Virus record (IMG/VR): IMGVR_UViG_3300010885_031091
Location: 1-38,756 of that record
Source of the DNA: a virus
Reading direction: 5' to 3' (one strand)
Length of the DNA stretch: 38,756 bases
Shown here: piece after piece, positions 7,501-34,083 of the stretch
Position numbering within the stretch: the first letter of the stretch is position 1
Layout of the letters: each line of letters begins with the position of its first letter
Position numbers and translations under genes: made by a program
The notes under the pieces: model-generated
Databases searched by the model: none
Told to the model about the DNA's origin: nothing
Seen by the model: only the letters and a program-made list of their open reading frames with translations

Positions 7501-9182
7501 CCGACAAGCTTCTTGAGCGGTCGCTGATGGAGAGTGTTCCTGAGAACAAAGAACTCATGATCCGCATGGCCACAGGCATGAAGAAAGCCACCGCTGACAG
7601 CTTCGGCAGGGCGGAGCACAAGGACTACAAGAAGATCCCGACATCCGCCCGCTATGGCGCGCTCGCTGGCATGGAGGTCCGCAAGGAGATCTATGATGAC
7701 GTGGTCGGCATGGGCTCGTTCAACCCTGACCCCAACACTTGGCAGCGCTTGTTTGGTGAACAAAACTCCACGGTTGCCAATGCAGTGAACACATGGAAGG
7801 CAACAAAGACCGTCTATAATCTTCCCTCGCAGGTTCGCCAGCTTATAACCAACGCCGTCACGCTCCAGTTGTCTGGCGTTCCTCTGGCAAAGGTTCCGTT
7901 GCGCATCACTCAAGCGATTGACGCGATGGCAAACAACGGAGAGGCGTGGAGGATTGCCAAGGACTACGGGGTCACTGGCAGCGGCATGGCCGAGACCGAA
8001 CTGCGACCGGCCCTAGAAAAGTTGAAGTCATACCTTTCTGGCAACAAGGACGGGATGCTTAACCCGAACGGCCTGAGGGCTGCGCTTGGAAAGATCATCG
8101 TGGACAACCCGCAGAAGCTCTACTCGCTTGGCGATAGGGTCTACAAGGTTGCCAAGATCATTGACGAGATGGACAGGGCGCGTAAGGACGGAAGACTCTC
8201 GACGCCTGAGGGGCGTCGAGATGCTGAGCGGGATGCCGCCCTCGAAGCGCACAAGTATTTCTTTGACTATGCCAACGCTCATCCGTGGGTGAAGTCTGCC
8301 CGGTCCTCGCCGTTTGGCGCTCCGTTCCTGACCTACTACTACAAGATGGCCCCTGTTCTGGCCGAAACGATTCTCAAGAACCCGCAGCGCTTCATCCCGT
8401 GGATAGCCCTACATTATTCGCTGCCGCTCATGGCGGCGGCGATGTTCGATGTAAAGCAGGACGACCTCAAGCACCTGAAGAATACTCTTTCAAAGTTTCA
8501 GGCCGAGAACCCTGACGTGCTGCCGCTCCCTTACAGGGATGATCGTGGCAAGGTGGCGTTCTTCGACGTGGGCTACTTGTTTCCGTGGCAGATGTTTAGT
8601 GGCATAGCCAGTGCCTTTGCTCAGGGCGACCCTAGGAAAGCAATTCGGGCCACTGGCTTCCTTGGCAACCCGGCAATCAATGTCCCAGTCAACATCATGA
8701 GCAATGTTGATTCGTTCAACGGCAAGCCAATCTACAACGAGTTTGACCCGCCAAACCAGCAGATGGGCGACATGCTCAACTATGTCTGGGGTCAGGCCAT
8801 GCCCCCAATCTTCACGCAGTATGGTGCGGTTGGTAAGCTTGTGACCGACCACTTCCTGCACAACGGTGAGGGCGTGGACCGTAAGGGTAACCCCACTCTC
8901 TCCGGCGCTGAACTGTTTGGCCGGGCCATTGGCCTCAACGTCTACCCGACAGACCCGATACATCAGCGTGCGCAGCGTGTCGCGCAGATGGAGTACGACC
9001 TCAACAAGACCATATCGCGCAGGACATGGGCGATGCGAGATCACTCGCGCACGCGCGAGCAACTCAACGCCATCAATCAGGACTACGTGAACGACATCAA
9101 ACAGAAACAACAAGCAATTAGACAGTACATGCTGGACACGCAAATACCCGACAGCCTATTGCCAAAGCCAAGCACGCAGTGA
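1563..9182 (+). CDS. giant multidomain internal virion protein with LPD-type domains and two HExxH motifs
   Basis: 2539 residues; the ATG follows an AAGGA Shine-Dalgarno. In order: two tandem copies of an NPxTGxxVxWxGTxWxP repeat (residues about 5-49); Gly/Ala-rich hydrophobic stretches (about 140-390) that could cross or disturb a membrane; charged helical regions; two related winged-helix-like repeats (about 798-860 and 890-935); a HEAFH motif at 1111-1115; a second zinc-protease-like HEIQH at 1461-1465 inside a segment resembling LPD23-type polyvalent proteins; and a C-terminal part (about 2050-2380) resembling the LPD38 domain, with KATKTVYNLPSQVRQLITNA. Proteins of this class are packaged in the capsid and ejected with the DNA. 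I infer an ejection protein carrying peptidase-like effector domains. The 5590-6660 segment is visibly AT-richer than its flanks, suggesting domain insertion. Confidence 0.8.
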   Translation: MAVAYNPTTGEAVFWNGTSWAPATVAANPKTGDKVAWDGTNWSPIGTPAPQTSVLSDLGQFAKRGVGEAIGQVGYLANRLPGDYGTGMEKYGEEMAASADQAISPEAKERAARPYVTETEPGKGTFGTSYQFNPSAIAGIPYQAAEMAPGAAVAIGGGLLAGSGAVAASPLEATTGLGLLALRVLGPLGESTAAKMLGTAGVAAARQSGASLLESAAPAVGQLLLRTLPADAIMGLQMGAITGQATEKQITQQLQANPDQLTKTPEGVAALAKTNGNVEEAIKIIAESTSGTAALRGGVLGALAGVPGKLFEAGVVQQGFTRGALSDAAKGAALEGISGAGIGAGQQYIENIEAMPYTPGLTPGKDVLNSAIQMGVLSSGIGGGLGAFRGATKARDITPEQYDRALQIANDANLLRDIQTFRQSEDVNIRARGEQLAQQFAEAQRIIALPPPPRPGEGPAIVPPSSAEDASFASPLSGLDARQVIGWAETNAAQYPAFRSILDAPLDINDKAKALFAAERDQASRVYTKAQADRDAAVKAAEIQRQQEETARTLAAAGESQTTKYPRRYDDVRETPEWQELHGNYSDVAGDAVDYSDPAYKDIAGNPKLKGAIKDKALADLAAQRRSDFEQKRSEILDAFDARRKVEPEAGDRQTLAAASDFQKYPTGFRPDEGDANSPTLINYLLSIKPGEGPLTGEVQNILGLNVSAKDARAAIEAHSDGRGLNIFDTQQNKYGTTFVRNDVRTGGPEANRDVSNPLRPAEPAVETAAPRKTGLDVTQPDTRTFEEPAPEPEVADVKLVQDYIKSATFGQRVTPEKIQSETGADMGVVKSEIAAHFPATTAQEALLRGNRAGMLRPDPNRPGAFIRTKVSGESVFKPRKTAPKDTRPPEQKVRDYIRDLDKGRMVSPREVASATGASEEMVRHELESHTYDPTRSAIAESLLSSREKLLTKTGDGNYIRNSSRPEASEAASPAEERILRTPNLGAKEQVAPSSKEPLTAERIAEARKNIGSKLRELRAMGKGGNELANSLVRALKDRELTDQQVLHAFVTSDMMAKLLGVTGAAPRVEFMKQLLHPETKGEVGGLAMRNLIQISLDKKFLENVRETGAHEAFHLLQDIMVAHDPKAASLLFGKRVGTNAEGRGIYEGGAFKDGMKLSDVPTDIKRALQSASPTQGGETYWQRLEKMFGKDGRFKEAFTTQREAMAYVFGSLADAKMRGYSNAGLLPMSKRFTNFAAGVMTRLRNLLRGEGYRNANDVLSEYATGKTQRGLEAAPELNGRPEFAWTGEKGATWPKEVQKTAEGMEANGDTPDMIYFATGLHRGEKDGKWRKEVPDVNAEIDAGELIHTFLNFDKDGNLVNFDRNATAALEDIYDHRDLYNEYPFLKDYAIKLIPESDEGRVGGRHRETEKIIEVSGKQIMSYLDYMVKKLAKQDTTPSEPLSWTSVPGIAAHKLPRIIAHEIQHAIQSHEGFALGTNPGAVERRMREDAKNLLGSVNAFKDKVYADIKNMSDFVRVNMFRDFKSKHPDIAISVLDFLDGSSDRVKLWRNGNQIPIAERIKLLRELESNYEFGQIVNYRDRAETALQKARDAEGLIVGTEGGYSKSDADQHYLKNAGETESRDVEGRLDLTTEEQRRAHLPGEMDYVPSSKGREHIFDAPYFESIRDGSALDPFANILKGVRATISRDIVDRYMEERSEASVVGKEELTPSENSAVYNEPKSKGSPERSIAYHAPFEASTAKQAKDAMDNIERDTTGIMRRTYNKVYDALVTKWDPKGSLPMSQKYMGLMYLTRGKIAQFSESARKLYDVINTAKPEERAKVYEYLINKGAPLPAVPPKILEAAKTAKSEILKIGEDAVYKGLLTPEQLNQYKDAYLPRLYLQYMLEDGGLGGSGGFKTGDQGWRKERMNLTPEERALKGEIKDPGFLTMAALIRPQRDMAILDFLQDVANDKEAQWVLPKSIVNWRGRNVSAFWLAKEADKLLERSLMESVPENKELMIRMATGMKKATADSFGRAEHKDYKKIPTSARYGALAGMEVRKEIYDDVVGMGSFNPDPNTWQRLFGEQNSTVANAVNTWKATKTVYNLPSQVRQLITNAVTLQLSGVPLAKVPLRITQAIDAMANNGEAWRIAKDYGVTGSGMAETELRPALEKLKSYLSGNKDGMLNPNGLRAALGKIIVDNPQKLYSLGDRVYKVAKIIDEMDRARKDGRLSTPEGRRDAERDAALEAHKYFFDYANAHPWVKSARSSPFGAPFLTYYYKMAPVLAETILKNPQRFIPWIALHYSLPLMAAAMFDVKQDDLKHLKNTLSKFQAENPDVLPLPYRDDRGKVAFFDVGYLFPWQMFSGIASAFAQGDPRKAIRATGFLGNPAINVPVNIMSNVDSFNGKPIYNEFDPPNQQMGDMLNYVWGQAMPPIFTQYGAVGKLVTDHFLHNGEGVDRKGNPTLSGAELFGRAIGLNVYPTDPIHQRAQRVAQMEYDLNKTISRRTWAMRDHSRTREQLNAINQDYVNDIKQKQQAIRQYMLDTQIPDSLLPKPSTQ

Positions 9183-10563: not shown

Positions 10564-10976
10564 TGTATGACAAAGACATCCTGATTCAGGAACTGATGCG
10601 CGACGAAGGGGTGCAACTTAAACCTTACCGGGACACGGTAGGCAAGTTGACCATCGGTGTCGGCAGGAACCTCAACGACGTGGGCATCTCTAGGCCAGAA
10701 GCTTTAGGGCTTCTGGCCAATGACATAGCCGCAGCGGAATGTGCTCTGGACAAGGTGTTCCCGAAGTGGAAGAGCCTGACCGACACTAGGCAGCGAGTGC
10801 TGCTGAACATGGTGTTCAACATGGGTCCTTCCGGCCTTACCGCCTTTTCTAAGTTCATTGCCAACCTTTCCCTTGGTGATTGGGGAGGCGCTGCCACAGA
10901 GATGCTTAATAGCAAGTGGGCAGTGCAGGTTGGTCAGCGAGCCGTCAGGCTTGCTGACATGATGAGGAGGGGTTGA
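10563..10976 (+). CDS. endolysin, T4-type lysozyme (glycoside hydrolase 24 type)
   Basis: 137 residues from ATG 10563; a GTG three bases upstream is an alternative. It carries the T4-lysozyme catalytic triad with exact spacing E-8-D-5-T: E15, D24 and T30, followed by IGVGRN. It therefore should hydrolyse the N-acetylmuramic acid-N-acetylglucosamine bond of peptidoglycan. No signal peptide or signal-anchor is present, so release to the periplasm would depend on the holin encoded two genes downstream. Its length is typical of the short phage members of the family. The stop overlaps the start of the 42-aa membrane protein (TGATG). Confidence 0.95.
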   Translation: MYDKDILIQELMRDEGVQLKPYRDTVGKLTIGVGRNLNDVGISRPEALGLLANDIAAAECALDKVFPKWKSLTDTRQRVLLNMVFNMGPSGLTAFSKFIANLSLGDWGGAATEMLNSKWAVQVGQRAVRLADMMRRG

Positions 10977-12800: not shown

Positions 12801-13055
12801 TTAGTCGTATCCAGCTTCCACCCGCAGACGCCGCCGCTCTTCGGTCAGGTATCCCGCCAGTTCTCGCAGGCGTTCGATCTCGTCTTCCTGCTTGCCGTTT
12901 ACAACGCAAAGGTTCATGACCGCGTCGCGCAGCCGATCAATCTCATCGGCTGCCGAAACACAACCACATCCGGGATTTTTCTTCATGGTCTTGCATCTGC
13001 GGTTAAACTCAGCGCATGGGCCTCCCTCGCGCATGTATGCGGAGATGTCGGCCAT
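12801..13055 (-). CDS. small coiled-coil protein, paralogue of upstream gene
   Basis: 84 residues. The central stretch ADEIDRLRDAVMNLCVVNGK followed by QEDEIERL is nearly identical to a stretch of the upstream 139-aa protein, so the two arose by duplication. The N-terminal part has four cysteines (PCAEF, RRCK, GCGC), possibly metal-binding. The rest predicts as a coiled coil. GGAG lies within the end of the upstream gene, 2 nt before the start. Function unknown. Confidence 0.7.
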   Translation of the reverse strand: MADISAYMREGGPCAEFNRRCKTMKKNPGCGCVSAADEIDRLRDAVMNLCVVNGKQEDEIERLRELAGYLTEERRRLRVEAGYD

Positions 13056-13057
13056 GG

Positions 13058-13477
13058 CTAGCTCCTGCTCCGCAGCATGTCGATCCGTCTGTTCATTTCC
13101 CTGATCTCCATCCTTGCGTCGGCAGTGTCTTTCCTGACCTCAGCCACAATCAGGGCGGCGCTCTCTAGATTTTTGTCCAAGGCAGCAATGTGCTGTATGG
13201 CGCATTGATAATGCTGGTGTCCCCATGTCCAACAGCCGGGGCTGTGGGTTCCAACCCTGCCCGACCTGTCCTGCTCCCACTTCAGCGCCTTGTTGAGGCG
13301 CTCGATCTCGTCCTCATGTTTGCCGTTGGCAACGCAGAGGTTCATGACCGTCTCGCGCAGTCGATCAATCTCATCAACTGCATCCCCCATGACATCACAG
13401 ACACACATCCTGATTGACATGCAGCCGGTGTTATCTGGACAAGCGGTCGCCTTCATCCTCTCCACGATGTCAGTCAT
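13058..13477 (-). CDS. coiled-coil hypothetical protein with Cys-rich N-terminus
   Basis: 139 residues. A cysteine-containing N-terminus (ACPDNTGCMSIRMCVC), the duplicated heptad module shared with the downstream gene, a HSPGCWTWGHQHYQC segment that recalls other phage small proteins, and a long C-terminal helix ending in RRIDMLRSRS. It overlaps the next upstream gene by 4 nt (ATGA). Probably an oligomeric cytoplasmic protein; role unknown. Confidence 0.7.
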   Translation of the reverse strand: MTDIVERMKATACPDNTGCMSIRMCVCDVMGDAVDEIDRLRETVMNLCVANGKHEDEIERLNKALKWEQDRSGRVGTHSPGCWTWGHQHYQCAIQHIAALDKNLESAALIVAEVRKDTADARMEIREMNRRIDMLRSRS

Positions 13478-15537: not shown

Positions 15538-15866
15538 GCGTTGCCTCCCGTCTCACCGACGAGCCTTACAAGATCCTTGGGGATCAGTGCCTTCATCCGC
15601 TTGACCTCATCAGACATGAGGTCAAGGACGGACGATGCCACGATCAGGACGTTTGCCTTGGCCGTGTTGTCGTTGATGTTATCGAAGGCAGCGGAAAGAG
15701 TTCCGATGATCATGTTTGTCATTGCAAACGACACCGGAACACCAGCAATACCCTCTGGTCTGTGAAGAGCCAGAGCCTCACAGAATATCTCCATGAGGCT
15801 TTCAGTCTCTTCGATCCCCTCTTCGTTCATCCACTTGGGGACCACCACCATCACTTCTGTTGCCAT
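15534..15866 (-). CDS. hypothetical protein
   Basis: 110 residues with AAGGAGCAATT before the ATG. Mostly helical, with moderately hydrophobic stretches (FAMTNMIIGTLSAAFDNIN) that are not long enough to be clear membrane segments. No known motif. The 5' end overlaps the HNH gene by 65 nt and the 3' end overlaps the next gene by 4 nt. Confidence 0.65.
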   Translation of the reverse strand: MATEVMVVVPKWMNEEGIEETESLMEIFCEALALHRPEGIAGVPVSFAMTNMIIGTLSAAFDNINDNTAKANVLIVASSVLDLMSDEVKRMKALIPKDLVRLVGETGGNA

Positions 15867-16418: not shown

Positions 16419-17204
16419 CTACTTCTTCTTTAGTTCATCACGACGTGTGTTGAAGATGGTACGGACCTCTGCGTGCGTGGCTTTGTCATCGACTTCCATC
16501 TTCTCGATGACGCCGATGTTGTCAGACCACAGCGAGCGGACGAGCCCGACTGTGTCGCATGCGTTAAGTCCAAGCTGAAGCACATGTTTCACAGACTTCC
16601 AGTCCTTGGTGTCCGTCTTGATGATCGACTGGCCGTCTTTGTTTAGGTGGCTGATCACCGCCATGTGTGGCGAGGGATCTGTTGAAGTTGCACCTTTCTC
16701 CGGCTTGGCTCGGACCTCTGTGATCTCCGCGTCGGGGAAGGTCTTCAGCACTTCCTTGACGTTGGTGTCTGACTTGGCCCGGATCTTCAGATCTTCCGGG
16801 TTGGTTGCGTCGGCATCCTCTTCACCCGTGATCACCTTGAAGGCGGTCCTCATGAAGAGCTTATCCGCATAGCTGGCGGCAGACCCTGCGGTCTGCGCGC
16901 CTTGAATGGCGTGCAGGATGGTGAACTTCGAGAACTCTTCGATCATATCGCCACTCTCGTGGTAAAGATCGAAGGCGTATGTTGTCTTGACGGAACCATC
17001 CTTGCCAACGTTGGGGACGATTTCGTGGGCAACCTCGCGGGGTTGCCACAAGATACCATTGGCGGCAGCGATCTTCGCCACGGCCTCATAGTACTTATCG
17101 ATGCTGACGTAGTTGTATTTGGCAAACTGGTTCCTGTCTGCCTTGCCGATCTGTGGAATTGCCTGAGCAATCCGCACCATTGCTGACGCAATGTTTGGTG
17201 TCAT
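16419..17204 (-). CDS. erf: ERF-family single-strand annealing protein
   Basis: 261 residues. The N-terminal domain has the ERF signature: KADRNQFAKYNYVSIDKYYE, then GAQTAGSAASYADKLFM and GEEDADA. ERF proteins form rings that anneal complementary single strands, and P22 Erf is the type member. The C-terminal part (about 150-261) is variable and resembles no known domain. Its ATGA overlaps the nuclease stop, giving an exonuclease/annealase pair like lambda Red. Confidence 0.88.
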   Translation of the reverse strand: MTPNIASAMVRIAQAIPQIGKADRNQFAKYNYVSIDKYYEAVAKIAAANGILWQPREVAHEIVPNVGKDGSVKTTYAFDLYHESGDMIEEFSKFTILHAIQGAQTAGSAASYADKLFMRTAFKVITGEEDADATNPEDLKIRAKSDTNVKEVLKTFPDAEITEVRAKPEKGATSTDPSPHMAVISHLNKDGQSIIKTDTKDWKSVKHVLQLGLNACDTVGLVRSLWSDNIGVIEKMEVDDKATHAEVRTIFNTRRDELKKK

Positions 17205-18109
17205 GACTTATCTCCCATGTTTGTCTCGATGACATACTGACCGTACTGTTCGCAGAACGGTGCTACGCGACAGTAGTTTCCAGTGCAGCGCACTGGTTCT
17301 CCGGGTCGGTGGTCCACATAGAAGGCTTGAGGGGCGTTCTGATTTTTGAGCCACTCATGTGCTTCGGGCTCAGTATCAAACACCTTAGTGGCCTTCTTGT
17401 TACCGATCTTAACCACGGCGAACTTCTCGCCCCGCACCCACCGGTCTTCGTCGGTGCAATGCGGGAGGTCATCCCCGAACTCAGAGGCAGTTGCTGCTGC
17501 CTGATGAATCCGGACCCGCTCCTCAACGTAGGCTTGCTGCCTTTCGAAATCCCACAGCGGGATGTCAATGACTTTGGCCGGTGCTTGAGGGTAGGCTGGG
17601 TTACGTTCAGCATCCTGCTTGCGCCAGTCCCGGATGAGGGCGCAGATGGCAAGGCGCTTTATGCTCACGCCCTTCACCTTGCGGACAAGCCAAGCATACA
17701 AGTTCAACTGTAGTTCCCAGTCGCTCTTGCTCTCGGCGTGCATCACTGCCCATGCTGATGTGAACTTGTAGTCTTCGAGGCTGATGCTGCCATCATCCTC
17801 AAGTGTCTGGAGGTCTATGCCTCCAGACAGAACCCACCCACCCACGTCTGCAAACAGACGCTCTTCTGGCAGGTGCCTGTGGTCTGCCCCGCTCTCCGCC
17901 ACATGGTGGATGGCACGGCCTACCAGAGCCCACAGCCCATCAGCAACATCAACTTCGATCTCGTCATCATGACGCTGCCGAAGTATGCTGATTCGCGGAG
18001 CACTGATTAGTGTAGTTACACTAATCCTAGCGGCACCTTTGGTGTAAGTATCACGTTCTGTAAGGTTGACCAAGGTCTCGGGGAGACCGTGTTTGTTTGT
18101 GTACTTCAT
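17201..18109 (-). CDS. PD-(D/E)XK nuclease (Cas4/RecB-like), recombination partner of ERF
   Basis: 302 residues. The core GGIDLQTLEDDGSISLEDYK gives the GxxD and (E)xDYK elements of the PD-(D/E)XK fold, followed by QLNLYAWLV. The C-terminal CTGNYCRVAPFC has three cysteines which, with one more, could hold an Fe-S cluster as in Cas4/AddB nucleases. Probably a 5'-3' exonuclease that makes single strands for ERF. GGAGGACAC precedes the start. It heads the leftward operon and is divergent from RusA. A 22-bp dyad lies within its first 35 codons. Confidence 0.8.
   Translation of the reverse strand: MKYTNKHGLPETLVNLTERDTYTKGAARISVTTLISAPRISILRQRHDDEIEVDVADGLWALVGRAIHHVAESGADHRHLPEERLFADVGGWVLSGGIDLQTLEDDGSISLEDYKFTSAWAVMHAESKSDWELQLNLYAWLVRKVKGVSIKRLAICALIRDWRKQDAERNPAYPQAPAKVIDIPLWDFERQQAYVEERVRIHQAAATASEFGDDLPHCTDEDRWVRGEKFAVVKIGNKKATKVFDTEPEAHEWLKNQNAPQAFYVDHRPGEPVRCTGNYCRVAPFCEQYGQYVIETNMGDKS
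18005..18026. promoter_or_regulatory. 22-bp dyad inside the nuclease gene
   Basis: Perfect 10-bp arms GATTAGTGTA / TACACTAATC around a 2-bp centre. It looks like an extended, one-base-shorter relative of the dispersed palindrome. A weaker match (GGTGTAAGTATCACG) follows at 18041-18055. It lies 83-104 nt downstream of the nuclease start, within reach of the divergent promoter region, so it could be an operator. Confidence 0.5.
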
Positions 18110-18169
18110 GTGTCCTCCTGCCAGTTGAGAGCGTAGCTTTACCTGTAACCTTAGTCAACAGGAAATATC
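18110..18169. promoter_or_regulatory. divergent intergenic region, presumed promoters
   Basis: Only 60 bp separate the divergent starts of the PD-(D/E)XK nuclease and RusA. Both Shine-Dalgarno sequences are present (GGAGGACAC leftward, AGGAAA rightward). I cannot identify convincing -35/-10 boxes for either direction. Promoters must be here or in the adjoining coding sequence, where the 22-bp dyad lies. Confidence 0.4.
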
Positions 18170-18580
18170 ATGGACGTAATCGAGCTTGTTATTGAGGGGG
18201 AGCCTGCAAGCAAGGCGAACTCGCGCCGGATCGTGAAGCGCGGCAACCGACTTGCCAGCATCAAATCGGCAAAGGCCTTGTCCTACAGCGACCACTTCAG
18301 GGAACAATGCCCTCAAGGCATTGTTCCTCTCACTGTACCGGTGAAGGTACATCTCGAAATCTTCTACGCATCCCGCCGTCCGGATCTGGACGAGAGCCTG
18401 ATCCTCGACCTGTTACAGGGGGTAGCCTATGACAACGACCGACAAGTCAGAGAGAAGCACATCTACTGGGGACTCGATCCCGACAGACCACGCACGCACA
18501 TCCGCGTTGAAGCTGCTCCGCTTCTCGATAGTGCAAGCCATCGAGGACGCAGCAAAGGGAAAGGGAAAGCGCCAGCGTGA
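18170..18580 (+). CDS. rusA: RusA-family Holliday junction resolvase
   Basis: 136 residues. ELVIEGEPASKANSRRIV and RRPDLDESLILDLL...YDNDRQV are the RusA signature. The acidic residues D72, D74, D80 and D88/D90 provide the metal site. Such enzymes cut four-way junctions, clearing branched DNA before packaging. The conserved fold ends around THIRVE. The last about 20 residues (Ser/Gly/Lys-rich) are atypical and coincide with the overlap with the next gene. AGGAAATATC precedes the ATG. Confidence 0.9.
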   Translation: MDVIELVIEGEPASKANSRRIVKRGNRLASIKSAKALSYSDHFREQCPQGIVPLTVPVKVHLEIFYASRRPDLDESLILDLLQGVAYDNDRQVREKHIYWGLDPDRPRTHIRVEAAPLLDSASHRGRSKGKGKAPA

Positions 18581-18743
18581 GGCGATGACTTATCTTTCCT
18601 CGCGCGACTTTGCTGATGACTGCGCCAAGATTGGCCTAAGTCGCAAGGCAATAGGTGATGCCATCATAAGGTTGCTTAACATGGATGAGGATGATCGGAT
18701 CGAGGAGATCACCAAACTCAAGAGGTTCGTTCGAGGTGCTTGA
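18429..18743 (+). CDS. small helical phage protein overlapping rusA
   Basis: 104 residues if started at ATG 18429, giving a 152-nt overlap with rusA in another frame. An in-frame TTG around 18510 would start just before the recognisable part. From KLLRFSIVQAIEDAAKG through AMTYLSSRDFADDCAKIGLS it matches a common phage pattern in which a short helical protein has a helix-turn-helix-like end. The first 28 residues are Ser/Thr-rich and may not be translated. Possibly DNA-binding. Start uncertain. Confidence 0.6.
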   Translation: MTTTDKSERSTSTGDSIPTDHARTSALKLLRFSIVQAIEDAAKGKGKRQREAMTYLSSRDFADDCAKIGLSRKAIGDAIIRLLNMDEDDRIEEITKLKRFVRGA

Positions 18744-18756
18744 CTCCAACGACGCA

Positions 18757-19403
18757 TCTCGAACATATTGTTCGGGACTCCAAACGAAAGACCCCGCCAC
18801 GGCGGGGGACACCGGGCGGGGTCTAGGAGTGGATCGTCTTTGGCAAGAGGTGATCCACTCTCGCGCTGTGGGCTGTAGGAGGCCAGCGCGTTGGGTCAGA
18901 ACGTACCATGGTGAACCATGGCGTCAAGTCCCACCGCACAACTTTCACACTCGCAGCGAAGCGGCAGTCGTAGAGACGGCTCTCGTCGCGGGCGTTCGCC
19001 TTGATCGGTCTCTCAGGTGGAGTTCCCTTACGGACCAAACCAAACCCGGTCAACGTCGAGCCCTGACGAACCGGTGCCTGCCGCCGCAAGGTGAAGGTAG
19101 AGGTGAAGCAGTCTGGTGGCCGGGGATGGTCAGGGCCACCAGATGTCCAGCGCCTCAGGAAAAGCTGGAAGGCAGACGACTCACCCCAGAGTCGGAGGAC
19201 GACGACGGTCCTCAAGGAACTGAGTATGCGGCACGCCCTTCAGGGGCGTGCTTCCCTTCACCGAGGGACTGTGGACCTATACCTAAGGTCAGCAGGCAGA
19301 AAAGGGCGGAGCCATGTCCGGAGCATAACGTGCAAGTTACACCAATGTTTACCTGAGAAACATCTTGAATGTGACTGCGTCATCTGCCTAGGATGTAGGC
19401 GGC
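18757..19403 (+). ncRNA. candidate large structured noncoding RNA upstream of primase
   Basis: About 670 bp without a credible gene, yet filled with local complementary arms. Stems seen: 18757-18764/18770-18777 (8 bp, one G-U); 18789-18798/18815-18824 (10 bp, competing with an inner CCCCGCC/GGCGGGG); 18827-18835/18852-18860 (9); 18862-18868/18884-18890 (7); 19112-19121/19134-19143 (10); 19177-19182/19189-19194 (6); 19195-19200/19208-19213 (6); 19231-19238/19244-19251 (8); 19274-19278/19286-19290 (5); 19345-19350/19358-19363 (6); 19386-19390/19396-19400 (5). Open frames here give Arg/Pro/Ser-rich nonsense. Large phage RNAs such as GOLLD and ROOL are precedents in size and context, but no identity is claimed. 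It could instead be a long structured leader of the primase gene. Confidence 0.5.
19329..19343 (+). promoter_or_regulatory. 15-bp palindrome copy upstream of primase gene
   Basis: CGTGCAAGTTACACC, one base off the consensus at the outer position. It ends 71 nt before the primase start, inside the hairpin-rich stretch. This is the only copy ahead of a rightward replication gene. Confidence 0.6.
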
Positions 19404-19414
19404 AAGAGGGAATC

Positions 19415-21160
19415 ATGACAGTGATGCAATCACAGGATGACGAGATCATTCTGCCCATGGCAAACAGCCGTGGGCAGGGGCAGCACCGTGTTGTTTGTCC
19501 CTTCTGTAGCGGTCAGCGCAAGCGGACCAACCAATCAGCCAAGACCATGTCATTGAAGGTGGACCATGACGGCTATGTCTTTACATGCTGGCATTGCGGA
19601 GCCAACGGCAGTGGTCTCAACAACACAGGGTCATACATGGCGCAGCCAGCAAGAACATTATCAGAGGTGACCGTCCTGTCAGAGGACGGCCTGTCGTACC
19701 TGTTGACACAGCGCGGCATCAGTCACGCCACCGCCAACGAGGCAGGGCTCTTCGAGTCCAAGGTGTGGGTGCGGGAGGTCGGGGAAGAAACGACATGTGT
19801 GGGGTTCCCGTACTTCGATGAGCGTGGCGTTAGGACCGGAGCAAAGCTTAGGTCCATCAAGGCGAAGGGCTTCACCGCACAGGGTGCGGCCCGTAACTTC
19901 TTCGGGATCGAGCGGCTCATTCCAAATGAGCCGATTGTAATCTGCGAGGGTGAGATGGACGCGCTGTCGGTGACAGAGGCGGGCATGCCCAACGCAATGT
20001 CGGTGCCGCATGGCGCACCACCTGTTCCCAAATCTGGAACAAAGTCAGACTCAAATGACAAGCGGCTTGAGTGTGTGTGGAACGCACGCGACCTGCTTGA
20101 GGCCGCGCCAAAGGTCATCATTGCCGTGGATAGTGATGGACCCGGAGATGCCTTGGCTGAAGAACTTGCAAGGCGCATAGGCAAGGCCAAGTGCTGGAGG
20201 GTGCGCTGGCCGGAGGGAGTGAAGGATGCCAACGAGTTTCTACTTGCGCATGGCGCTGCCGATCTACGCGAGTATATCGAAGAGAAGGCTGATCCGTGGC
20301 CGCTGTCCGGCGTACACCAAGCCAGCGATTTTAAGGCGCAACTCGTTGACCTTTATGACAGGGGTCTTTCCTCTGGACTTGGCACGGGATGGAGCACGGT
20401 TGATGAGTTCGTCTCTATATCGCCGGGCATGTTATATGTTGTCACCGGAGTTCCGGGCTCCGGTAAATCGACATGGCTCGATGCGCTCCTGATGAACGTC
20501 ACCCAACAGTGCGGGTGGAAAGGTGCAATAGCATCTTTCGAAAACCCGATCCCCATCCACCTTGCCAAGTTTGTCAGCCTCTACACGGGCAAGCCATTCG
20601 GTGAGGGCAAGCCGGGGCGCGTGACAAAGCAGGAGACTGAAGACGCACTCGACTGGATCAACGATCACATGATGTTCCTTGCACAGGATGGCGAGCCGCC
20701 AACTGTAACCAACATCATCGACCGTCTGACCGCAGCGGTTAAGCGCATGGGTGTGAGGTGGGTTGTGATCGACCCCTTCAACTTCATCAGGCTTGGGGAT
20801 GGCGAGGCTGCTCTGTCAGAGACATCAGCGATCAATGAGATGCTTGCCGCCTTCAAGACCTTCGCCACCACCCACGACGTGGCGTTGTTCATCGTTGCCC
20901 ATCCAGCGAAGCCCCCGTCATCAGCCGGGAGCGAGTGGGTGCCAAGCGGATACAACATATCCGGCTCAGCCAACTGGTATAACAGGGCCGACTTCGGGAT
21001 AACGGTGCAGAGGCTGGAGGCATTGTCTCGCGTGCATGTTTGGAAGTGCAGGTTCGGACATCTCGGCAAGGTGGGGTCGGAAGATCTTGTGTTCCAACCC
21101 GACACGGGCCGATACTTCGAGGCCAACGATCCTGCATGCTTTGACGATCTGGATTTCTGA
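19415..21160 (+). CDS. bifunctional DNA primase-helicase (T7 gp4-like)
   Basis: 581 residues from ATG 19415 with GAGGGAATC upstream; the frame is open further 5' but that part is noncoding in character. An N-terminal zinc-binding domain (C28/C31 in CPFC, C58/C61 in CWHC), a TOPRIM domain (CEGEMDALS and VDSDGPG), then a RecA-like SF4 helicase with Walker A GVPGSGKST at 345-353 and Walker B VVIDPFNF. It primes and unwinds at the phage fork. It is followed after one base by the DUF6456-like gene. No DNA polymerase gene lies nearby. Confidence 0.93.
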   Translation: MTVMQSQDDEIILPMANSRGQGQHRVVCPFCSGQRKRTNQSAKTMSLKVDHDGYVFTCWHCGANGSGLNNTGSYMAQPARTLSEVTVLSEDGLSYLLTQRGISHATANEAGLFESKVWVREVGEETTCVGFPYFDERGVRTGAKLRSIKAKGFTAQGAARNFFGIERLIPNEPIVICEGEMDALSVTEAGMPNAMSVPHGAPPVPKSGTKSDSNDKRLECVWNARDLLEAAPKVIIAVDSDGPGDALAEELARRIGKAKCWRVRWPEGVKDANEFLLAHGAADLREYIEEKADPWPLSGVHQASDFKAQLVDLYDRGLSSGLGTGWSTVDEFVSISPGMLYVVTGVPGSGKSTWLDALLMNVTQQCGWKGAIASFENPIPIHLAKFVSLYTGKPFGEGKPGRVTKQETEDALDWINDHMMFLAQDGEPPTVTNIIDRLTAAVKRMGVRWVVIDPFNFIRLGDGEAALSETSAINEMLAAFKTFATTHDVALFIVAHPAKPPSSAGSEWVPSGYNISGSANWYNRADFGITVQRLEALSRVHVWKCRFGHLGKVGSEDLVFQPDTGRYFEANDPACFDDLDF

Positions 21161-23796: not shown

Positions 23797-24115
23797 TTTC
23801 ATATTCCCCTATCTTGCATCTGTGGAAGTTAGTGTTGAGGAGGCAGTCCATACTGCCTCCCGATAGTTCTATCTCCAGCTTCTTTGCCACCTCCCAAACA
23901 GCCATGACAAAGGAGGCATTGCTATCGACCGGAAGAATGGCCACGGTGAGGGTAGCTAGTCTGTCGCCGCTCTTGATGGGTCTGTTCAGATCCACAAGGG
24001 CAACCTCGATGCACTCACCCTCATTGGAGGGCGAGAGACTCGCCCTCCACACAGCCTTGCCGTTCTCCATTGACAGAAAGACAAGCGCTGCAACGTCGCT
24101 CTCTGTCAGCTTCAT
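23789..24115 (-). CDS. hypothetical protein in MoxR-VWA operon
   Basis: 108 residues. Beta-rich in appearance (AVWRASLSPSNEGE, LATLTVAILPVDS), acidic, with no membrane segment. It overlaps both neighbours (ATGA upstream, 8 nt into the VWA gene), so it is co-translated. It shares a general layout with the following small gene, perhaps distantly related. Function unknown. Confidence 0.65.
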   Translation of the reverse strand: MKLTESDVAALVFLSMENGKAVWRASLSPSNEGECIEVALVDLNRPIKSGDRLATLTVAILPVDSNASFVMAVWEVAKKLEIELSGGSMDCLLNTNFHRCKIGEYEND

Positions 24116-30406: not shown

Positions 30407-30576
30407 CAACTAAAATTCATCAATGATTACAGATACTTAGGTGTAAGTTACACGTAACCACATAGATAACATTGCATAACATGGGGCGTTTATGTGAGTG
30501 TGATTCGCCATGGCCGGAACCATGGTTCTTGTTCCTATAAAGTATTAATCCGGTATTCGAGCGGAGCGAGTAAGAA
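30407..30576 (+). promoter_or_regulatory. AT-rich divergent intergenic region ahead of terS
   Basis: Contains a palindrome copy (30440-30454), two CCATGG sites 12 bp apart, and TATAAA about 40 nt upstream of the terS start that may be a -10 box without a clear -35. GGAGCGAGTAAGAA precedes the terS ATG. No gene seen. Confidence 0.45.
30440..30454. promoter_or_regulatory. 15-bp palindrome copy in divergent region
   Basis: GGTGTAAGTTACACG: both arms have T/A in place of C/G at the same symmetric position, a compensated change. It is about 34 bp upstream of the leftward TTGACA box. Confidence 0.75.
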
Positions 30577-32577: not shown

Positions 32578-34083
32578 ATGGACGCCGCAAGACGACATCT
32601 CGATAGGATCGCTGCTCTACCGGTTGCTGAGCAGAAGGAGATTCTATCGCTCCTGAAGAAGCTAGAAGAGGCAGAGCGCAAGGAAAAAGCGCGTGCCAAG
32701 TTCATGCCCTTCGTTCAAGAGATGTGGCCCGGATTCATTGAGGGCGACCATCACAAGATCATGGCAAACGCCTTCGAGCGTGTTGCCAAGGGTGAGTTGA
32801 AGCGGTTGATCATCAACATGCCTCCTCGCCATACCAAATCAGAGTTTGCCTCTTACCTTCTTCCGGCTTGGTTCCTCGGGCAGTTCCCGAACAAGAAGGT
32901 CATTCAGGCTTCGCACACCGCAGAGCTTGCTGTCGGGTTCGGACGTAAGGTTCGAAACCTTGTGGGCAGTGAGGGCTATCAGAACATCTTCCCCGGTGTC
33001 GGCCTCAAGGCCGACAACAAAGCCTCAGGTCGGTGGGCAACCACACAGAACGGTGATTACTTCGCCGTGGGTGTTGGTGGTGCAGTCACCGGTAAGGGTG
33101 CAGACATCTTGATCATTGACGATCCTCACTCCGAACAGGAAGCGAAGATTGCTGAGCACCAGCCCGAAGTGTTCGACGGTGTGTATGACTGGTACACATC
33201 CGGGCCTCGCCAGCGCCTCCAGCCGGGAGGCGCTATCATCATTGTGATGACGCGGTGGGCCAAGCGCGACCTTACCGGGCAGATCATTAAAGCCGCCACT
33301 GAGCGCGAAGGATCTGATGAGTGGGAAGTGATCGAGCTTCCAGCCATCATGCCATCAGGCCAGCCCCTATGGCCCGGCTTCTGGCCGCTTGATGAGCTTG
33401 GCAAGCTTCAGGCAGAACTTCCCCTGTCAAAGTGGCAGGCACAGTATCAACAGCAGCCGACCTCTGAAGAGGGCGCGCTGGTCAAGCGTGATTGGTGGAG
33501 GGTCTGGGAGCCTGAAAGGCCCCCAGCCTGCGAGTTCATCATTCAATCTTGGGACACCGCATTCGAGAAGAATCAGCGTGCTGACTTCTCAGCCTGCACA
33601 ACTTGGGGCGTGTTCTATCATCCAGATGATGATGGCAAGCAACAAGCCAACATCATATTGCTCGATGCTTACAAAGAGCGCCTTGAGTTTCCGGAGCTAA
33701 AGTCCAAGGCGTTCAAGATGTACAAAGAGTATGAGCCCGATGCCTTCCTCGTGGAGAAGAAGGCGGCAGGCGCTCCTCTGATCTATGAGCTTCGAGCCAT
33801 GGGTATCCCGGTATCTGAGTTCACCCCGGTTCGCGGGCAGGACAAGATAGTCCGGGTGAACGCCGTATCGGACCTCTTCAAGTCTGGCATCGTGTGGGCT
33901 CCGCCCACTCGATACGCAGAAGAGGTGGTTGAAGAGTTCGCCTCGTTCCCAGCAGGGGAACACGACGATCTTGTAGACAGTTCAACGCAGGCTCTGTTGC
34001 GCTTTCGTCAAGGCGGCTTTGTCCGCCTCTCCTCTGACGAGGAAGAGGTGATGAAGATGCCGCGCAAGCGCGAGTATTATTGA
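32578..34083 (+). CDS. terL: terminase large subunit
   Basis: 501 residues. The ATPase domain has the Walker A-like PPRHTKSE at 82-89 and Walker B DILIIDDP from 176. The nuclease domain follows: QSWDTAFEKNQRADFSACTT (aspartate near 326), FLVEKKAAGAPLIYEL and a C-terminal HDDLVDSSTQALL. It powers DNA translocation into the prohead and cuts the concatemer. No Shine-Dalgarno precedes the ATG, because a terminator hairpin does. A leaderless or downstream start cannot be excluded, though residues 1-40 look like genuine coiled protein. Confidence 0.95.
   Translation: MDAARRHLDRIAALPVAEQKEILSLLKKLEEAERKEKARAKFMPFVQEMWPGFIEGDHHKIMANAFERVAKGELKRLIINMPPRHTKSEFASYLLPAWFLGQFPNKKVIQASHTAELAVGFGRKVRNLVGSEGYQNIFPGVGLKADNKASGRWATTQNGDYFAVGVGGAVTGKGADILIIDDPHSEQEAKIAEHQPEVFDGVYDWYTSGPRQRLQPGGAIIIVMTRWAKRDLTGQIIKAATEREGSDEWEVIELPAIMPSGQPLWPGFWPLDELGKLQAELPLSKWQAQYQQQPTSEEGALVKRDWWRVWEPERPPACEFIIQSWDTAFEKNQRADFSACTTWGVFYHPDDDGKQQANIILLDAYKERLEFPELKSKAFKMYKEYEPDAFLVEKKAAGAPLIYELRAMGIPVSEFTPVRGQDKIVRVNAVSDLFKSGIVWAPPTRYAEEVVEEFASFPAGEHDDLVDSSTQALLRFRQGGFVRLSSDEEEVMKMPRKREYY

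Follow-up and report, generated by a model that had tools for sequence, protein, structure and literature searches.

A candidate Shine-Dalgarno-blocking small RNA in the hairpin-rich noncoding gap before the primase-helicase gene of an environmental phage

The gap that precedes the primase-helicase gene of an environmental phage (analysed here as a window that spans its entire IMG/VR virus record, 38,756 bp) contains a structured core that is tentatively read, with a probability of roughly 45%, as an orphan phage small RNA (sRNA) blocking translation of the primase and the exonuclease. An sRNA of ~112 nt would be transcribed leftward from a promoter-like site at ~18900-18927, end at an intrinsic terminator and fold as three perfect stem-loops with C-rich loops (Table 1). 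The loop of hairpin 2 would expose CCUCUUGCC, which is predicted to form 9-10 bp with the Shine-Dalgarno sequence (SD) of each flanking operon: that of the primase-helicase on the right and, on the left, that of the exonuclease, whose gene leads to Erf. Covering of these SDs would block ribosome entry, and recombination and replication proteins would be held back together, or shut down after early infection. If the primase mRNA reads through from rusA-p104, the sRNA would also be a true antisense RNA to the primase leader.

Table 1. Features of the gap and its surroundings, with related features elsewhere in the window.
Feature	Position	Strand	Basis or detail
Erf-like gene, next after exonuclease	16419-17204	-	
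PD-(D/E)XK exonuclease gene	17201-18109	-	PHROG 2139, E 1.9e-53; Pfam PDDEXK_1
Exonuclease SD GGCAGGAGG	18114-18122	-	predicted second target
RusA-like Holliday junction resolvase gene	18170-18580	+	Pfam RusA, 34.7 bits
p104 gene (104-aa protein), ends where gap begins	18429-18743	+	codon score +0.16
Palindrome CGAACATATTGTTCG, directly past p104 stop codon	18760-18774	.	hairpin scan
Candidate sRNA gene, ~112 nt	18782-18893	-	three perfect hairpins and U-rich 3' end; predicted ends
U-rich tail UUCGUUU after terminator stem	18782-18788	-	terminator scan
Hairpin 3 / intrinsic terminator, 10-bp perfect outer stem, loop with CCCCC	18789-18824	-	terminator scan, fold
Hairpin 2, 9-bp perfect stem, loop ACCUCUUGCCAAAGAC (anti-SD loop)	18827-18860	-	fold, hairpin scan
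Seed CCUCUUGCC in hairpin 2 loop	18842-18850	-	complementary to primase and exonuclease SDs
Hairpin 1, 7-bp perfect stem, loop GCCUCCUACAGCCCA	18862-18890	-	fold, hairpin scan
Extended -10-like element TGGTACGTT	18900-18908	-	TG-n + TACGTT (3/6), 16 nt from -35
Inverted repeat CCATGGTGAACCATGG filling promoter spacer; possible operator	18906-18921	.	CCATGG pattern count
-35-like hexamer TTGACG	18922-18927	-	5/6 match
Second hairpin row, stems of 10, 6, 6, 6 and 8 bp	19112-19251	+	fold scan
One copy of dispersed palindrome GGTGCAASTTGCACC	19329-19343	.	~72 bp before primase ATG
Primase SD GGCAAGAGG	19401-19409	+	predicted target, 9 Watson-Crick pairs
Primase-helicase gene	19415-21160	+	PHROG 239, E 1.5e-90
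Dispersed perfect hairpins (examples)	8197-8221; 10693-10718; 15600-15626; 17804-17829; 18301-18327; 24025-24049; 33212-33234; 34653-34677		
Copies of palindrome GGTGCAASTTGCACC	712, 4526, 11507, 14225, 15951, 19329, 25608, 26341, 26875, 27511, 27791, 28256, 28738, 29050, 30282, 30440, 31234 and others		

The gap (18744-19414) is genuine noncoding DNA. Its codon-usage scores in all six frames (-0.14 to -0.34) fall at the out-of-frame background (mean -0.33, sd 0.18; most real genes score +0.15 to +0.4) and a 223-aa ORF at 18685-19356 has no match in Pfam or PHROG, which together rule out a protein and agree with the original prediction that the region holds no credible one. It is also strongly structured, with z-scores of the whole-region minimum free energy of -5.1 on the plus strand and -4.9 on the minus strand (equalled by 0/20 shuffles). 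Counted as perfect, non-overlapping hairpins whose stem is at least 6 bp, the at least eleven local helices first described come to exactly 11, compared with 2.35 +/- 1.45 (maximum 6) in 60 dinucleotide shuffles, and stems of at least 9 bp number 3 versus 0.03. The two mutually exclusive foldings proposed for CCCCGCC (18792-18798) are likewise borne out, with GGCGGGG partners present at both 18801-18807 and 18815-18821; the shorter of these pairings is also the match of the terminator scan.

The hairpins fold independently along the gap, in a series with one extreme cluster, and do not make up a single large fold. Among 150-nt windows, 18751-18900 reaches z-scores of -7.4 (plus) and -7.8 (minus), the lowest of the genome on each strand, while most of those across 18901-19350 lie far nearer to the genome mean of -0.9. 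Folded alone, the 505 nt of 18910-19414 have z-scores of -2.5 (plus) and -1.7 (minus), the segment 19055-19260 gives -2.5 on the plus strand and -0.9 on the minus strand, and a hairpin just upstream of the primase start produces a 150-nt window with a z-score of -4.0 on the plus strand. The mildly structured part at 18930-19414 may be an ordinary primase leader or control DNA. Of the large structured RNA originally envisaged, the noncoding status and the strong structure stand but the large fold is not supported, with the signal concentrated at 18751-18900.

The unevenness of the fold signal along the gap speaks against one giant RNA, and the idea of a new class of giant noncoding RNA is highly improbable: length, noncoding status and hairpin count would suit it, but the structure includes near-background stretches, and no relatives were found. 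ROOL adopts a complex pseudoknotted fold and assembles into an RNA cage. Both ROOL and GOLLD resemble the region in being noncoding, hairpin-rich and of phage context; however, the region has no covariance-model match, tRNA neighbourhood or large conserved fold. The proposed likeness to these giant RNAs was not upheld, given that neither family matched the window in Rfam covariance-model searches, even at E-values up to 10 with permissive filters, and the tandem hairpins are independent of each other. OLE likewise had no Rfam match. Whereas GOLLD exceeds 800 nt in many members and often lies near tRNA islands (PMC12286853), the gap here is 671 nt long and no tRNA, let alone a tRNA cluster, is found in the 38.8-kb record. 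The further suggestion of a decayed mobile RNA such as an intron finds no support in the same kind of search, with no group I or group II catalytic core matching 18000-19800 at E-values up to 10.

The extreme cluster coincides with the candidate sRNA gene. The 129-nt segment that holds it folds at -62 kcal/mol (z -5.6, with 0/200 shuffles as good), the loops of its three hairpins are C-rich and 15-16 nt long, and hairpin 3 has two alternative inner pairings. Because the hairpins of the gap are near-symmetric between strands, the choice of strand must rest on other marks. One of these is the U-rich tail that follows the GC-rich hairpin 3 on the minus strand; no U-tract follows this hairpin on the plus side. 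Another is the promoter-like site TTGACG-16-TACGTT, which would place the start of transcription at the base of hairpin 1. The -10 element TACGTT is a poor match. A combined score (-35 plus extended -10) as high as this one is found at 0.046% of positions on the minus strand, a figure that includes a TG-motif bonus of the analysts' choosing and a consensus that may not be this phage's promoter type. The minus strand of 18782-18927 carries the terminator and hairpins of a candidate short gene, together with a weak promoter-like site. The inverted repeat in the spacer (CCATGGTTCACCATGG) suggests that this promoter is regulated; the pattern CCATGG-N2..10-CCATGG occurs twice in the window versus 0.06 expected. 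The other such repeat, CCATGG-N6-CCATGG, lies at 30508-30525, upstream of the small terminase gene.

A rightward structured RNA, either a long primase 5' leader or a rusA-p104 3' UTR, is an unlikely reading of the same hairpins. In such an RNA, GGCAAGAGG in the hairpin 2 loop would serve as a decoy for ribosomes or as an attenuator. The strong plus-strand fold is consistent with this, as is the greater structure of 18910-19414 on the plus strand than on the minus strand, which includes the hairpin before the primase start and a weak terminator-like hairpin at 19231-19251 that closes the second hairpin row. However, the strongest hairpin lacks a U-tract in this direction, no suitably placed start codon follows the SD-like loop of the plus strand, and the region matches none of the riboswitch or leader families of Rfam.

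The loop of hairpin 2 links the candidate sRNA to its predicted targets. Its duplex with the exonuclease SD comprises 10 pairs if the preceding U is counted, one of them G-U. Duplex energies are -15.5 kcal/mol for the primase and -16.8 kcal/mol for the exonuclease, with estimated net values of ~-7.5 and ~-6.6 kcal/mol respectively after opening both partners. In the 38,756 bp, GGCARGAGG sites number three, one in the hairpin 2 loop and one at each of the primase and exonuclease SDs; an exposed stretch complementary to target SDs, a trait of SD-blocking phage sRNAs, is present (9 and 10 bp) and is unique in the window. Across 46 translation starts, the best contiguous matches to loop 2 belong to the exonuclease (10), the primase (9) and p104 (8), all members of the same module. 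Relatives without the element carry other sequences at the two SD positions, and a loop match of at least 9 is seen at 0/32 of their exonuclease starts and 0/53 of their primase starts, a comparison in which some start codons of distant relatives are possibly mis-assigned. When ACCUC is held fixed and the rest of loop 2 shuffled, both matches arise jointly in 0.02% of cases, though the complementarity was found after inspecting three loops, the statistics were computed with the match already known, and every loop with CCUC has some complementarity to SD sequences. On sequence grounds, these tests give good but not conclusive support for the predicted pairing.

In this genome, the presence of hairpins says little by itself in favour of an sRNA. 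Perfect hairpins with stems of at least 9 bp and loops of 3-8 nt number 27 in the whole window versus 1.3 in shuffles (~20-fold), with many located inside genes and with unrelated stem sequences. The same class is represented by 0 hairpins in T7, 3 in the first 50 kb of DSL-LC04 and 9 in the 45 kb of MinM2. Three close relatives (L087-L089) are as dense in hairpins, with 6-7 perfect ones of at least 8 bp in 2.1-2.5 kb; some lie at the same positions, others have moved and some show paired changes. Across the stems of relatives, 14 pairs have changed on both sides and still pair, and 64 are broken. Given that hairpins are cheap in this genome, the sRNA reading draws its support not from folding energy but from the direction of the terminator, the promoter-like site and the match between the loop and the SDs. 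As a side observation, an 86-nt direct repeat (86% identical; 12868-12953 and 13296-13381) lies between two nearby leftward genes and suggests a gene duplication.

This abundance of hairpins, dense also in L087-L089 and sparse in T7, DSL-LC04 and MinM2, favours an account in which those of the gap are local products of a genome-wide process, with no discrete sRNA. The process could take the form of quasipalindrome template switching or of selection for many mRNA hairpins, and would be most visible in an unconstrained gap. Such an account is somewhat unlikely: it leaves unexplained the directional U-tail, the well-placed promoter-like site and the loop match to two flanking SDs, and the loops of hairpins 1-3 are 15-16 nt long versus 3-8 nt in the dispersed class. 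The two ideas can also be combined, with the gap as the densest point of a lineage-wide system of perfect RNA hairpins that runs through genes at ~1 per kb and in which compensatory changes keep or remake the hairpins in relatives; within it, one dedicated sRNA would recognise, through its loop, the ribosome-binding sites of both the replication and the recombination operon. This composite is quite unlikely.

The preferred reading, a dedicated minus-strand sRNA, concerns an element that appears to have a narrow distribution. Gene order is kept in relatives, with the Erf-like and exonuclease genes leftward and RusA, a small gene and the primase-helicase rightward. In the sole relative with a recognisable p104 (L003, a weak homologue), the small gene stops 72 bp before the primase, and only ~130-570 bp separate the RusA match from the primase match in the other syntenic relatives. 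This spacing fits a small gene, but not a small gene plus a 671-nt gap, so that the gap appears to be particular to this phage, and perhaps to its closest kin. The contig of the nearest relative (L002), with a primase 82% identical, stops inside the primase gene and leaves the upstream region uncovered. No homologue of the element was found by blastn against phages and plasmids or in the records of relatives. Scans of viral contigs with both-strand translations of the region and with p104, and of genome contigs for the element, found nothing beyond chance, as did a search of viral contigs for the loop 14-mer with a check of flanking stems, among the matches listed. The more distantly related Synechococcus phage MinM2 has an unannotated noncoding gap of 748 bp before its primase (L245:18037-18784), which lies between divergent operons, is less structured than 18744-19414 and contains a TTGACA box and several hairpins.

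Proximity to replication genes also raises an explanation at the level of DNA, in which operators and hairpins form a regulatory hub or replication origin. The gap adjoins the primase, contains the CCATGG inverted repeat and a copy of a 23-copy palindrome at 19329, and has a counterpart in the divergent gap of MinM2. Even so, this explanation is improbable, as the region has no iterons or AT-rich stretch (GC 0.59), the GC-skew turn at 18 kb tracks gene orientation, and the gap is absent in syntenic relatives. The palindrome itself (GGTGCAASTTGCACC, 15 bp; 0.13 copies expected in the window) often stands immediately 5' of the SD of leftward genes at 24-29 kb. It is also present in the homologous phages L181, L215 and L223, with a longer form (AACTCAGGTGCAASTTGCACCTGAGTT) in the latter two, and is probably an operator or promoter element of a phage regulon.

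The candidate sRNA may work like known bacterial sRNAs with C-rich loops while standing outside their Rfam families. The Rfam search that the original prediction had proposed yielded no family at cut-off in the window, and 15 related loci likewise contained no member at cut-off. The best match is to sX13 (RF02232), at full length on the minus strand with 32.0 bits compared to a cut-off of 50; the whole-window search gave it 30.5 bits and E=0.042, the same E-value as an obvious chance match to a plastid intron. For ar14 (RF02344), the score is 20.8 bits against a cut-off of 58.8. A search of 39 phage records for these two families found chance-level matches only, and is no negative for the window, as its fast first pass also missed the window's own weak match. 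Like the candidate, sX13 and ar14 contain consecutive hairpins with C-rich loops, the last of which is the terminator, and a loop that can base-pair with SD regions rich in G, but the candidate scores below both cut-offs and is not a member of either. The idea of an RsmY-like CsrA sponge was rejected, with an RsmY match of only 17.8 bits (E=0.14).

By analogy, the nearest functional parallels may lie among the short antisense RNAs of phages, for example sar of P22 and OOP of lambda. These are antisense to their own target gene, whereas the predicted targets of the candidate are two flanking genes, contacted via one loop. Both sar and OOP act on phage control genes, and the promoter of OOP is tied to replication control (PMC12197685). 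No sequence relation of the candidate to either was found within the Rfam search. Plasmid countertranscript RNAs, such as CopA of R1, offer a further comparison, as antisense RNAs with loops that control translation of a replication gene. Unlike CopA, the candidate is predicted to target a phage primase-helicase and exonuclease, with SD contact through a loop stretch of 9-10 nt.

If the sRNA reading is correct, an environmental phage controls the start of its replication and recombination operons with one short loop, and the candidate sRNA would be a simple timing device. Hairpin-rich phage gaps that lack homologues would then be readable through the direction of terminators and the match of loops to ribosome-binding sites nearby. 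Apart from the sRNA, the abundance of perfect hairpins across this phage genome, many of them within genes, is a striking finding in its own right.
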